A stretch of DNA of 64,000 nt from Sphingomonas sp. 67-36 (lineage in GTDB: Bacteria > Pseudomonadota > Alphaproteobacteria > Sphingomonadales > Sphingomonadaceae), in assembly GCA_001897375.1 (NCBI GenBank), contig MKSU01000026.1:16175-80174 (forward strand), read 5' to 3'. The position numbers and the translations under genes were made by a program. This document shows positions 4,081-36,076 of the stretch, piece by piece (positions within the stretch are counted from its first letter, which is position 1; every line of letters starts with the position of its first letter). The notes beneath the pieces are model-generated. The model was not told the origin of the DNA. It ran no database searches and was given only the letters and a program-made list of their open reading frames with translations.

Positions 4081-4116
4081 ATTTTCGTAATTCATATTGA
4101 CATTGATTACGCAAAT
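4081..4116. promoter_or_regulatory. Wide inverted-repeat operator, site 1 (upstream of TonB receptor)
   Basis: Arms ATTTTCGTAAT (4081-4091) and ATTACGCAAAT (4106-4116) are inverted repeats matching at 10 of 11 positions, with a 14-bp spacer. The CG steps are at 4086 and 4110, 24 bp apart. A TTGACA that could serve as a -35 box sits in the spacer at 4097-4102. The same geometry recurs at five other promoters in the window. Confidence 0.7.
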
Positions 4117-4176
4117 CGAGAAAGTGCGCGCCGATCAATGGCGCGGCTGGCTCGCGCGTTGCCTAGGAGAGAAAAG

Positions 4177-6732
4177 ATGCTGAAGGGGAGGAATCATGCG
4201 CTGTGGCTCGTGGGGGGCGTCAGCGCGCTCGCCATCGCCACGCCGGCGTTCGCGCAGGCGCAATCGCAGCAGGCGCCCGCCGCCGCGAGCGAATCCGGCT
4301 CGGGGCTGGCCGATATCGTCGTCACCGCGCAGAAGCGCGAGCAGAACCTTCAGGCGGTGCCGATCGCGATCAGCGCCATTCCCGAGGCGAAGGTCGCGCA
4401 GCTCGGCATCAAGGACGCGCAGGACATCACAGGTCTCGCGCCGAACGTGACCATCTCGGTGCCGGCGAACAGCATGGTGGCCGGCGTCATCTCGATCCGC
4501 GGCATCCCCAGCGGCGCGGTGGAATCGCTGAGCCTCGATCAGGCCAACGGCCTGTATGTCGACGGCGTCTATATCGCGCGTTCCGGCGCCGCGTCGCTTG
4601 ACGTGTCGGATATCGAGCGGGTCGAGGTGCTGCGCGGCCCGCAGGGCACCCTGTTCGGCCGCAACACCACCGGTGGCGCGATCTCCTTCATCACGCGCGA
4701 TCCGTCGAAGACGTTCCGGGGCAGCGTGGAGGCGGGCGCCGGCAATTACGGCCAGTGGAACGCGCGCGGCTCGATCGATCCGGGCGAGATCATGGGGATC
4801 AGCTCCACCTTCAGCTACTCGCACAGCCAGCATTTCGGCTATGTCGACAACATCCTCCAGCCCAGCCGCCTGAAGGACCCGGGCGCGCGCCAGCAGGATG
4901 CGTTCCGCGCGGCGCTGAAGGCCGATATCGGCGGCACCGGCAGCATCAAATATATCTTCGATTATTCGAATGTGCGCGGCAACTCCTATAGCTTCCAGCT
5001 CATCAACGCGTCGGACGGCTCGGCGATGCCGCCCGTGCAGGTCGACGGGCTGTCGGTGCCGATGATCGCGCAGGCGCCGGTGACGCGCTATCTCAGCGAG
5101 GCCACCTTCACCAACCCGGCCTGCGCCGCGCTCGCCGCGCCGACCCACACCTACCGCGACAAGGTGTGCTTCAACAGCGACAATGGCGCGCGCGACCAGA
5201 TCTGGGGCCATAACCTTCAGATCCAGAACGATTTCGGCGGCTTCAAGATCAAGTCCACCACCGGCTACCGCATCTGGCACAGCGACAATTACGGCTCCGA
5301 CATGGACGGGCTGGGCCAGATCCAGGGGCCGCTGTTCACCAGCAGCAGCGTGCTCAACGGCATGCCGCTTTCGACGTTGCAGTATATCTATCCGACGGGC
5401 GGCACGGCGGCCTATCTCGCCAGCCAGCCGGTGCCGACGACGACGCGGGACCTGTTCACCACGCAGGATTTCCGCAAGCAGAAGCAGTTCAGCGAGGAGG
5501 TCGAGGTTTCCGGCGACACCGATCATCTCGACTGGGTCGTCGGCGGCTTCTATTTCTACGAGAAGGGGTCGGAATATAACCCGCAGAATTCGGGTTACGT
5601 GCTCGACACCAATGCGGCGGTGTTCACCTCGGCTACTTTCGGCGGTCTCGCGCCGCTGCTTCAGGCGGGCAATCCCGCGCGCTACCGGCTGGTCGTGACC
5701 AACTCGCTGGTCAATTATCTGACCAATGCGGAATCGGTCGCGGTATATGGCCAGGGAACCTATTATGTCGACGGGCGCGACGGCAAGCTCAGCCTGACGG
5801 GTGGCCTGCGCTACACCTGGGACAACAAGAGCATCATCCTGTTCCAGAACGGCCCGGCCCCGCTCACCACGCCGGACAGCGCGCATGCGAACTTCCAGCG
5901 GCTGACGTGGAACGCGATGGCGCGCTACGCCTTCACGCACGACATCAGCGTCTATGCCCGCGCGGCGAGCGGCTATCGCTCCGGCGGGTTCAACCCGTCG
6001 GACACGCCGCCGCTGACCGCGTTCAAGCCCGAAAAGCTGACCTCCTTCGAACTGGGCCTCAAGAGCGAGCTGCTCAACCGCCACCTGCGGTTCAACCTTG
6101 CCGGCTATTTCAACAAATACAAGGATCTGGCGGTTACCGTCCCGGTTCCGGCGAGCAGCACGGGCGGCGCGTTCAATACCCATATCGTCAACGCGGGCAG
6201 CGTCGATTATGCCGGTGTCGAGGTCGAGGGTCAGGCGATCCTCACCGACAATTTCTCGATCGACGGCAATTTCGGCTACGTCGATGTCGACTACAAGAAG
6301 TTCAACACCTACGTGACGACGCTGCCCGGCGCGCCCGCGATCGACGCGGCCTCGATCACGCATGCGAGCTACACGTCGAAATATACGGCGAACGTCGCGC
6401 TCAACGCGCAATTCCCGATCGGCAACGACGGGGCGAAGCTGATCGCGCGCGTGGGCTATACCTATCTTTCGCCGCAATATAGTTTCGTGAACGTGCTGTC
6501 CGCTCCGTATAGCGACATGATCCAGAGCGATCCGCAGCATCTGGTCGATGCGCAGATCGTGCTCGACAAGGTTTCGCTCGGCGGGATCAAGGCGCAGGTC
6601 AAGTTCTGGGCCAAGAACCTGACGAACGAGCACAACCTGGTCCGCGCGATCGATTTCGGGCAGCTCGGCTATGCGGGCGGCTATTATGGCGAGCCGCGCA
6701 CCTATGGCGCGACCGTCGGTTTCAATTTCTGA
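4177..6732 (+). CDS. TonB-dependent outer-membrane receptor
   Basis: 851 residues. The N-terminus is a signal peptide (MLKGRNHALWL, hydrophobic core, then PAFAQAQ), followed by a TonB-box-like GLADIVVTAQKREQN and a plug domain with VYIARSG...VEVLRGPQGTLFGRNTTGGAI. The rest is a 22-strand-type barrel ending in the typical aromatic residue (VGFNF). It should import a large or scarce substrate across the outer membrane with TonB/ExbBD energy. An in-frame ATG at 4138 exists, but AGGAG at 4165 and the signal peptide favour 4177. A wide inverted repeat lies about 60 bp upstream and a strong terminator follows directly. Catabolic sphingomonad clusters often carry such receptors. Confidence 0.95.
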   Translation: MLKGRNHALWLVGGVSALAIATPAFAQAQSQQAPAAASESGSGLADIVVTAQKREQNLQAVPIAISAIPEAKVAQLGIKDAQDITGLAPNVTISVPANSMVAGVISIRGIPSGAVESLSLDQANGLYVDGVYIARSGAASLDVSDIERVEVLRGPQGTLFGRNTTGGAISFITRDPSKTFRGSVEAGAGNYGQWNARGSIDPGEIMGISSTFSYSHSQHFGYVDNILQPSRLKDPGARQQDAFRAALKADIGGTGSIKYIFDYSNVRGNSYSFQLINASDGSAMPPVQVDGLSVPMIAQAPVTRYLSEATFTNPACAALAAPTHTYRDKVCFNSDNGARDQIWGHNLQIQNDFGGFKIKSTTGYRIWHSDNYGSDMDGLGQIQGPLFTSSSVLNGMPLSTLQYIYPTGGTAAYLASQPVPTTTRDLFTTQDFRKQKQFSEEVEVSGDTDHLDWVVGGFYFYEKGSEYNPQNSGYVLDTNAAVFTSATFGGLAPLLQAGNPARYRLVVTNSLVNYLTNAESVAVYGQGTYYVDGRDGKLSLTGGLRYTWDNKSIILFQNGPAPLTTPDSAHANFQRLTWNAMARYAFTHDISVYARAASGYRSGGFNPSDTPPLTAFKPEKLTSFELGLKSELLNRHLRFNLAGYFNKYKDLAVTVPVPASSTGGAFNTHIVNAGSVDYAGVEVEGQAILTDNFSIDGNFGYVDVDYKKFNTYVTTLPGAPAIDAASITHASYTSKYTANVALNAQFPIGNDGAKLIARVGYTYLSPQYSFVNVLSAPYSDMIQSDPQHLVDAQIVLDKVSLGGIKAQVKFWAKNLTNEHNLVRAIDFGQLGYAGGYYGEPRTYGATVGFNF

Positions 6733-6742
6733 GAGTAGGCCA

Positions 6743-34892: not shown

Positions 34893-34941
34893 GGTCATTC
34901 TCCGTTGGTCAGCGGGCTTGAGGGGAGCATAAAGGGCCGGG

Positions 34942-36030
34942 ATGGCAAAATCTGATCAAGGCGCATTCTCCGATCTGCTTTCGGCGCTCTATGGGGGGCT
35001 GCTGGAAATGGCGCCGTGGGAGCGTTTCCTGCGCGAATTCGCGGCATGGCTCGATGCGACCTACGCCACGCTGATCCTGACCGCGCCGGGCATGACGACG
35101 CCGGGCGCGATCCTGACGCCGGGCGCGCCCGCCGAGCGCAGCGAGGAATATGCCGAGAGCTTCTTCGCGAGCGATCCGTTCACGGGCCTGCCCGAAGGCA
35201 AGGTGACGGCCTTCGCCGAATTCCTCGGCGGCGAGATGGCGCGCGACAGCGATTTCTATCGCGACTTCCTCGCGGCGGCGGGGGGCGACCAGATCCTCGG
35301 CGTCGATCTTCGCTTCGACAGCGGGTTCGAGGCGCGGTTGCGCGCGACCCGCGATCGCAGCCGCCCCGATTTCGGCCAGGTCGAGCGCGCGGCATTTCAG
35401 GCGATCGTCCCACACTTGCGCCACGCGATCGGTCTTTTCGAGCGGTTGCAGGTCTCCGGCGCGGAACAGGGCGTCTATCGCGGCACGGTGGAGCAGATGG
35501 GGGTCGCCGCGATCATCCTCAATCGCGACGGCCGGGTGGTGCGGACCAATGCGGTGGCGGACCGGCTGCTGGCGGCGGGGGATGGGCTTGCGGTCGCCGA
35601 TTGCCGGTTGCGGCTCAAGGATGCGGCGCAGCGCAAGGGGCTGGACGCGCTGCTGAGATCGCTCGACGCCAATCCCGCACCGCAGCGTTTCCGCATCACA
35701 CGCGCCTCGGGCCGCGACCTTGCCGCGATCGCCAAGCCGATCGCCGCGCCCGCCTTCATGCGCGGTGGTGCGGCGCTCGCCCTGTTCGTCAGCGATCCGG
35801 GGCATGAGGCGCAGTTCGATCCCGAAGCCATCCGCGACCTGTTCCAGCTCACCCGCATGGAGGCGAACCTCGCGGTGGCGCTGGCCAGCGGGCGCTCGCT
35901 GGTCGATGCGGCGGACGCGCTGGGCATCGCGCACAATACCGCGCGGTCGCACCTGCGCTCGATCTTCGCCAAGACGGGCGCGCGCCGCCAATCGCAGCTC
36001 GTTCACCTGCTGCACGGCGGAGTCCAATAG
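34942..36030 (+). CDS. LuxR-type transcriptional regulator
   Basis: 362 residues. The C-terminal 60 are a LuxR/FixJ-type HTH (DLFQLTRMEANLAVALASGR, ADALGIAHNTARSHLRSIFA). The middle (GVAAIILNRDGRVVRTNAVA) is PAS-like. The N-terminal 150 residues are a sensor region of unknown ligand, unlike the acyl-homoserine-lactone domain. No luxI gene is near. Comamonas TeiR, a LuxR-type regulator of testosterone catabolism, is a possible functional parallel, not a demonstrated homologue. It is followed by inverted-repeat site 6 and the sulfotransferase. Confidence 0.9.
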   Translation: MAKSDQGAFSDLLSALYGGLLEMAPWERFLREFAAWLDATYATLILTAPGMTTPGAILTPGAPAERSEEYAESFFASDPFTGLPEGKVTAFAEFLGGEMARDSDFYRDFLAAAGGDQILGVDLRFDSGFEARLRATRDRSRPDFGQVERAAFQAIVPHLRHAIGLFERLQVSGAEQGVYRGTVEQMGVAAIILNRDGRVVRTNAVADRLLAAGDGLAVADCRLRLKDAAQRKGLDALLRSLDANPAPQRFRITRASGRDLAAIAKPIAAPAFMRGGAALALFVSDPGHEAQFDPEAIRDLFQLTRMEANLAVALASGRSLVDAADALGIAHNTARSHLRSIFAKTGARRQSQLVHLLHGGVQ

Positions 36031-36040
36031 AGTTGCATGT

Positions 36041-36076
36041 TCTTGCGCTGTTGATAACGTGTATTGATACGAATAT
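36041..36076. promoter_or_regulatory. Wide inverted-repeat operator, site 6 (upstream of sulfotransferase)
   Basis: Left arm core CTTGCG (36042-36047) and right arm GATACGAAT (36066-36074); CG steps at 36046 and 36070 are 24 bp apart. A second inverted pair, GAATATC (36071-36077) and GATATTC (36092-36098), overlaps it. Confidence 0.55.

Follow-up and report, generated by a model that had tools for sequence, protein, structure and literature searches.

A two-armed DNA element, ATTTGCGTA-N18-TACGCAAAT, in which the CG steps of the arms lie 24 bp apart, was found at six places in a stretch of 64,000 nucleotides from Sphingomonas sp. 67-36 (G000:C26:16175-80174, hereafter the window). Sequence comparisons indicate that this operator is real and occurs family-wide with conserved arms and spacing. 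The most likely binder is the tandem pair of Lrp/AsnC-type regulators, AsnC-A and AsnC-B, encoded at 9028-10004 of the window, as judged from genome association and covariation. It is probable that the element is the operator of this pair, with heterodimers on its arms and repression as the main outcome. Intergenic placement, conserved spacing and the kinds of target genes support the view of an earlier note on this DNA that the element is a protein-binding type of operator belonging to a catabolic regulon.

The earlier note had listed six CG/CG pairs in the window, and all six were found at the positions given in Table 1, exactly 24 bp apart. The neighbours it had named were also borne out, namely a TonB receptor, a KshA-type Rieske oxygenase, two divergent SDR pairs, the FMN reductase/SnoaL pair and a sulfotransferase. 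Its description of all six sites as intergenic held in general; the part that did not concerns site 2, whose left arm overlaps the 3' end of asnC-B (the gene ends at 10004). When 33 spacings from 8 to 40 bp were tried in the window and the two arms were scored over 16 positions in total, 24 bp gave four matches of at least 14/16, and each other spacing gave none or one. A consensus score of at least 11 at the 24-bp spacing was reached at 15 places in the window, so that consensus alone cannot tell sites 5 and 6 from background. These two sites were separated from background by an independent weight matrix, where consensus counting failed. The matrix started from 250 intergenic sites, reduced to 194 non-redundant ones, of which 189 from other genomes were used for training; the five excluded came from the window and from L046, a stretch of the host genome on C26 outside the window whose coordinates coincide with those of the contig. 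Only the six window sites exceeded the matrix cut-off, and no other window position reached 6. On 399 kb of random sequence resembling AT-rich intergenic DNA, the matrix gave at most 17, and three places scored at least 14; site 6 (15.2) is therefore the least safe when taken alone. A second detector, a sequence-only model built from 60 sites of relatives, recovered both sites 5 and 6 when the search was confined to the window, site 6 weakly (E 1.9). Two good single arms, inverted and about 46 bp apart, were also seen in an AT-rich intergenic region at 24410-24466, which has no 24-bp site.

Copies outside the window were located in the host genome (4.0 Mb, 32 contigs) at C26:11681, C26:13411, C26:4411 and C15:145387. 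The copy at C26:4411 (4406-4441) matched all 16 arm positions, with a spacing of 25 bp instead of 24. The copy on C15 (position 9888 of L047, a stretch on that contig) was a lone good operator between divergent genes and scored 21.6 with the matrix, which also recovered L046:13411 and L046:11681. A literal search of the host genome for TTGCGTA-N18-TACGCAA gave four places at one mismatch, all on C26 (sites 1, 2 and 4, and C26:13408 outside the window), and window site 3 and C15:145384 at two mismatches. Three mismatches gave 30 more places and a total of 36, compared with 98 for the reversed control, showing that loose matches (up to 3 mismatches of 14) are background. The genome-wide scan proposed in the earlier note was carried out with the model from relatives' sites, not with the six; at E<=10 it gave 11 hits, counted by strand, which correspond to six places, all on C26 and including C26:4411. 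Four sites fell below the genome-wide cut-off of this model: sites 5 and 6 of the window, C26:11681 and the one on C15.

The spacing was equally strict in relatives. In the window, L046 and a set of 20 stretches from 11 relatives, picked because they contain a motif match (434,545 bases together), 43 sites of at least 14/16 were found at 24 bp and 0-3 at other spacings from 8 to 79 bp. All 43 were intergenic, with approximately 20% of the bases intergenic, so the comparison of genes with promoters came out clearly for promoters in these motif-chosen sequences; it weighs against this count that gene starts and intergenic status rest on a simple codon-bias gene caller. A motif-blind set was made of loci retrieved solely via the AsnC-B protein (the top 80 of 113). 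These loci held 136 sites of at least 14/16 at the 24-bp spacing and 0-5 at 23 of 24 other spacings (12-36 bp); the 12 strong sites at spacing 12 were mostly one promoter repeated among relatives and overlaps within 24-bp sites. An intergenic site of at least 13/16 was present in 72 of the 80 loci. Chance similarity among AT-rich intergenic regions would fit the loose host-genome matches, which fell below the reversed control, but its probability is negligible, as the independent matrix already refutes it and the 43 intergenic sites, the 24-bp excess in motif-blind loci and the genome-wide model search also speak against it.

Both AsnC-A and AsnC-B have an AsnC-type N-terminal helix-turn-helix (HTH; PF13404/PF13412) and a C-terminal Lrp/AsnC ligand-binding (RAM) domain, PF01037. 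The solved structures matched by the AsnC-B profile were Lrp/AsnC proteins, and the predicted fold of AsnC-B was an HTH followed by an alpha/beta C-terminal domain (single chain, mean pLDDT 77, pTM 0.49). In a draw of 397 genomes of the family, the motif (at most one mismatch) was present in 63 and an AsnC-A orthologue (E<=1e-45) in 34. The motif occurred in 33 of the 34 genomes with AsnC-A and in 30 of the 363 without it (Fisher 1.6e-29); at least two copies were found in 26/34 and 3/363, respectively. The 34 AsnC-A genomes held 99 motif places compared with 11 in the reversed control (summed by hand). In 76 of the 80 motif-blind loci AsnC-A immediately preceded AsnC-B; three of the other four end at a contig edge, and AsnC-A was lacking from the locus examined in the fourth, L166. 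The operator followed asnC-B closely (-60 to +300 of the gene end) in 57 of the 76 loci. Autoregulation is not a general feature, as only 5 of 76 loci have a site within the 400 bp preceding asnC-A. The AsnC-A orthologue and the motif were both absent from all ten same-genus genomes of the 397-genome draw, and the cluster therefore looks accessory.

The genome association and the retrieval through AsnC-B alone support the AsnC pairs, which the earlier note had named as candidate binders. Its other candidate, a LuxR-type protein, was not seen among the window open reading frames scanned, which were not the full set. That a different regulator in or near the clusters binds the operator is very improbable: a LysR-type gene is present at 52510-53469 and the catalogue of relatives' regulators is partial, but that gene lies well away from the sites, and the AsnC-B-only retrieval and the helix/base covariation described below indicate the AsnC pair. 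Several observations nevertheless tell against the pair as the binder. The Fisher tests count related genomes and sites as independent. Genome G071 has the AsnC pair yet no motif at up to one mismatch, and, conversely, several motifs but no AsnC-A were found in G153, G296 and G384, of which the latter two carry the second pair type. In L166 (Novosphingobium jiangmenense), asnC-B (10001-10495) has no adjacent asnC-A and the locus has four sites. Eight of the 80 motif-blind loci lacked an intergenic site at 13/16; two of them, L171 and L172, have sites of the GGA type (12/14 and 11/14), L168 ends at a contig edge, and L158, L159, L167, L169 and L176 have the AsnC pair and no convincing site up to 10 kb on each side.

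The window holds two tandem, overlapping Lrp/AsnC gene pairs, the second at 28566-29464. Identity was 36% between A and A2 and 36% between B and B2, and 25-31% in the other combinations, as if the pairs had duplicated as units. It is possible, though we incline against it, that both tandem pairs recognize the operator or that some of the sites are bound by the second pair. Genomes with AsnC-B2 and without AsnC-A had the motif in 6 of 10 cases, compared with 24/353 of those with neither (p 3e-5), an operator immediately precedes the second pair in L185, L186 (both 15/16) and L183 (14/16), and B2 and B have the same TEGT helix start. However, the motif was present in 24/24 genomes with AsnC-A and without B2, indicating that the second pair is dispensable for the motif. 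Among the 20 short B2 loci, only 3 held a site of at least 14/16, and L182, which contains the second pair of the window itself, had none of at least 12.

A single arm, ATTTGCGTAA, is a quasi-palindrome of about 10 bp with a fixed asymmetry. When arms were found blind to positions -1 and +2, 165 of 232 arms had G and T there, and a single arm had the opposite combination, A and C. Homodimers of AsnC-B (or A) on each arm, with the other protein as a modulator, would agree with the near-palindromic arm core TTnCGnAA and with the four sites of L166. This arrangement is unlikely, since a homodimer leaves the fixed orientation unexplained and AsnC-A is so regularly found immediately upstream of AsnC-B. 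An A/B heterodimer with B on the inside is preferred because of the fixed -1/+2 asymmetry together with a change at residue 35 of AsnC-B that accompanies a change at arm position +2.

In the structure model, the predicted recognition helix spans residues 36-48, and residue 35 stands immediately before it. Residue 35 was Asn instead of Thr in seven loci: L148 (S. estronivorans AXB), L163, L171, L172 (strain Chol11), L176, and L169 and L174, which come from one assembly. Arm position +2 was G at 13 of 28 positions in Asn35 loci compared with 21/326 in 71 Thr35 loci (Fisher 8e-8, a value that overstates the case as sites were taken as independent), while the spacing was unchanged. With a looser cut, the counts were 25/46 and 62/536, respectively. 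The arms thus shift partly from GTA to GGA in the Asn35 clade, and the site behind asnC-B was kept in GGA form at L148:10520, L171:10497, L172:10509 and L174:10533. Other features of the same loci weaken this link. The site behind asnC-B in the Asn35 locus L163 (L163:10526) is fully GTA, and 13 of the 28 positions at +2 in Asn35 loci are still T. The 28 positions represent 14 sites from four of the seven loci, seven of these sites in L148. The Asn35 proteins form one clade in the tree (support 95/92), indicating a single evolutionary event, and AsnC-A changed too, from LTA to LIA, in six of the seven loci, AXB being exempt.

A further arm in first-arm orientation was found 62-64 bp away in 27 of 387 flanks (mean 0.7 per offset), including window site 3. 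This distance corresponds to about six helical turns, which suggests operators in tandem along the same face of the helix. A wider reading combines an obligate heterodimer, unlike half-arms and a 24-bp directional code with six-turn arms, and has pairs duplicating as units and specifying catabolic regulons in Sphingomonadaceae and relatives, bile-salt degradation included. It is offered tentatively and falls a little short of what we would be inclined to accept.

Among 137 occurrences of TTGAC at all offsets around the 194 sites, 18 lay at +11 from the first arm, 13 at -14, 11 at +33 and 6 at -29. A box at +11 or -14 would place the -35 element in the operator or directly adjoining it, and repression is therefore favoured; the pair would mostly act as a repressor. 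In the window, TTGACA at 4097-4102 falls within site 1, and a minus-strand TTGACA at 15801-15806 lies beside site 3. That the pair mainly activates the site-bearing promoters, or has a dual role, is rather unlikely given the positions of the two largest peaks, at which the -35 box would fall in the operator or adjoin it. The peak at +33 counts against repression, being equally compatible with an activator, as it leaves the operator just upstream of the -35 box in 11 cases, window site 3 included; dual function is documented for Lrp proteins (PMC2995911). Under the preferred repression model, A/B heterodimers would bind one per arm, AsnC-B contacting the inner half (GTA) and AsnC-A the outer half (TTGC), and the two heterodimers would face each other across the 24-bp centre. 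The complex would mostly repress by covering or flanking the -35/-10 region. A pathway catabolite, sensed by the C-terminal domains, may then release the complex, and the uptake (TonB), Rieske, SDR, CoA-ligase and related genes would be induced jointly.

Across all site-bearing genes, the site was present in 84/137 orthologous promoters; for genes lacking one in the host the count was 139/623. Conservation in orthologous promoters, which the earlier note had proposed as a test, was confirmed for the TonB receptor (12/13), the KshA-type oxygenase (35/46), the upstream SDR genes L046:10845 (19/21) and L046:11729 (9/9), and the sulfotransferase (1/1). It was little or absent at sites 3-5 in the few orthologous promoters compared, which weighs against the preferred explanation: the site was kept in 0/3 cases for each SDR gene at site 3, 0/2 for the SnoaL-like gene at site 4, and 0/1 for the minus-strand and 4/12 (partly kept) for the plus-strand SDR gene at site 5. 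The CoA ligase L046:13489 also kept its site in few cases (2/9), as did the SnoaL gene L046:4511, whose site has the 25-bp spacing (2/17). Some genes that lack a site in the host had one in relatives, where they head their own operons, namely the old-yellow-enzyme (OYE) gene (30/44), the SDR gene 27680 (35/41) and L046:5202 (19/23). No site was found in the orthologous promoters of the amidohydrolase (0/33), the Rieske gene 1406 (0/39), the amidase (0/28) and the MFS gene (0/19). The families in a survey of 225 first genes adjoining sites (67 representatives of 68 clusters) included 17 SDR, 5 SnoaL, 4 TonB, 3 AMP-ligase, 3 OYE, 3 acyl-CoA dehydrogenase, 2 KshA and 3 AsnC representatives.

The pathway is probably steroid or bile-salt-like side-chain/ring degradation, as judged from the gene content and from the match to strain Chol11, which was made by synteny and identity, not by locus tag. 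The Chol11 locus L172 shows synteny with the end of L046 and with the initial 9 kb of the window, with identities of 59% for the CoA ligase, 87% for the amidohydrolase, 80% for the Rieske protein, 71% for the amidase and 73% for an SDR. The genes behind the AsnC pair differ, being KshA and OYE genes in the window and two acyl-CoA dehydrogenase genes in L172. The bile-acid side-chain genes of Chol11 include a bile-salt amidase, the CoA ligase SclA and the acyl-CoA dehydrogenases Scd4AB (PMC8399759). The bile-salt side-chain cluster of Sphingobium sp. Chol11 has the contiguous Lrp/AsnC genes NCHOL11_RS15865/RS15860 (PMC12882949), and L172 very probably holds this pair, by gene order and 60% and 61% identity, not by locus tag. 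The available text of PMC12882949 suggests a role of the pair in amino-acid metabolism and gives no operator. The site in L172 is a weak GGA variant, TTCGGA...TCCGCA (11/14), before the two acyl-CoA dehydrogenase genes.

Table 1. Operator sites, regulator genes and site-bearing genes in the window (window coordinates; consensus out of 16 arm positions)
Feature	Position	Strand	CG steps	Context or role	Consensus	Matrix
Operator site 1	4081..4116		4086/4110	before TonB receptor	15/16	33.7
Operator site 2	9995..10030		10000/10024	3' side of asnC-B, before KshA-type Rieske	14/16	20.1
Operator site 3	15809..15844		15814/15838	divergent SDR pair	14/16	25.3
Third arm of site 3	15773..15780	-		63 bp from far arm		
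Operator site 4	25985..26020		25990/26014	FMN reductase/SnoaL divergent pair	15/16	26.5
Operator site 5	33092..33127		33097/33121	divergent SDR pair	12/16	23.2
Operator site 6 (weakest)	36041..36076		36046/36070	before sulfotransferase	11/16	15.2
asnC-A	9028..9507	+		Lrp/AsnC-type regulator, first of pair; proposed outer-half reader		
asnC-B	9504..10004	+		Lrp/AsnC-type regulator, second of pair; proposed inner-half reader		
asnC-A2	28566..29000	+		first protein of paralogous pair; start uncertain		
asnC-B2	28997..29464	+		second protein of paralogous pair; may read similar operator		
TonB-dependent receptor	4138..6732	+		target of site 1		
KshA-type Rieske oxygenase	10134..11213	+		target of site 2		
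SDR	14908..15741	-		target of site 3		
SDR	15919..16686	+		target of site 3		
NADPH-dependent FMN reductase	25102..25707	-		target of site 4		
SnoaL-like protein	26096..26467	+		target of site 4		
SDR	32261..33040	-		target of site 5		
SDR	33164..33964	+		target of site 5		
Sulfotransferase	36157..37293	+		target of site 6		

AsnC-A and AsnC-B share the HTH and ligand-binding domain of the Lrp/AsnC family (E. coli Lrp and AsnC; Pyrococcus FL11/PH1519). They differ from these in forming a tandem pair of two distinct proteins and in their probable operator, strictly directional with 24-bp spacing, and probable targets, which are catabolic and not of amino-acid metabolism. Lrp proteins bind 13-17-bp dimer sites, which are imperfect inverted repeats, two or three helical turns apart (PMC2995911). 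The operator spacing of 24 bp, about 2.3 turns, departs from these two or three turns and so argues against an Lrp/AsnC binder, the two-or-three-turn spacing being a reviewed norm for Lrp sites and not defining for the protein family. Known regulators of steroid catabolism are KstR/KstR2 (TetR) and TeiR/HsdR, which do not belong to the Lrp/AsnC family (PMC8399759). The same review describes the regulatory mechanisms in bile-acid degrading Proteobacteria as largely unknown.

The earlier note knew of no published operator of this form, and literature searches agreed: no description was found in the papers retrieved on AsnC/Lrp proteins in sphingomonads, Chol11, steroids and hetero-oligomers, most subscription papers being beyond reach, and among the papers listed for the literal arm sequences none looked related by title. 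A probable regulator and an exact operator can be named for degradation clusters in sphingomonads, a bile-acid-degrading group. The operator allows regulon members to be predicted in unstudied genomes and could be put to use in sensing steroid-like compounds. The natural change of one residue and one base offers a handle on asymmetric DNA reading by a paired Lrp/AsnC heterodimer.

A separate gene set without operator copies was observed at 46820-53469 of the window, comprising a TPP (thiamine pyrophosphate) enzyme, an aldehyde dehydrogenase, a kynureninase-type enzyme, an amino-acid permease and the LysR regulator. At 40987-43238, a Methyltransf_33 protein adjoins an FGE-sulfatase/DinB protein (by domains), a pair that we take to resemble ergothioneine-type EgtD/EgtB. 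LigD and Ku genes lie at 43313-46616 and presumably serve bacterial end joining.

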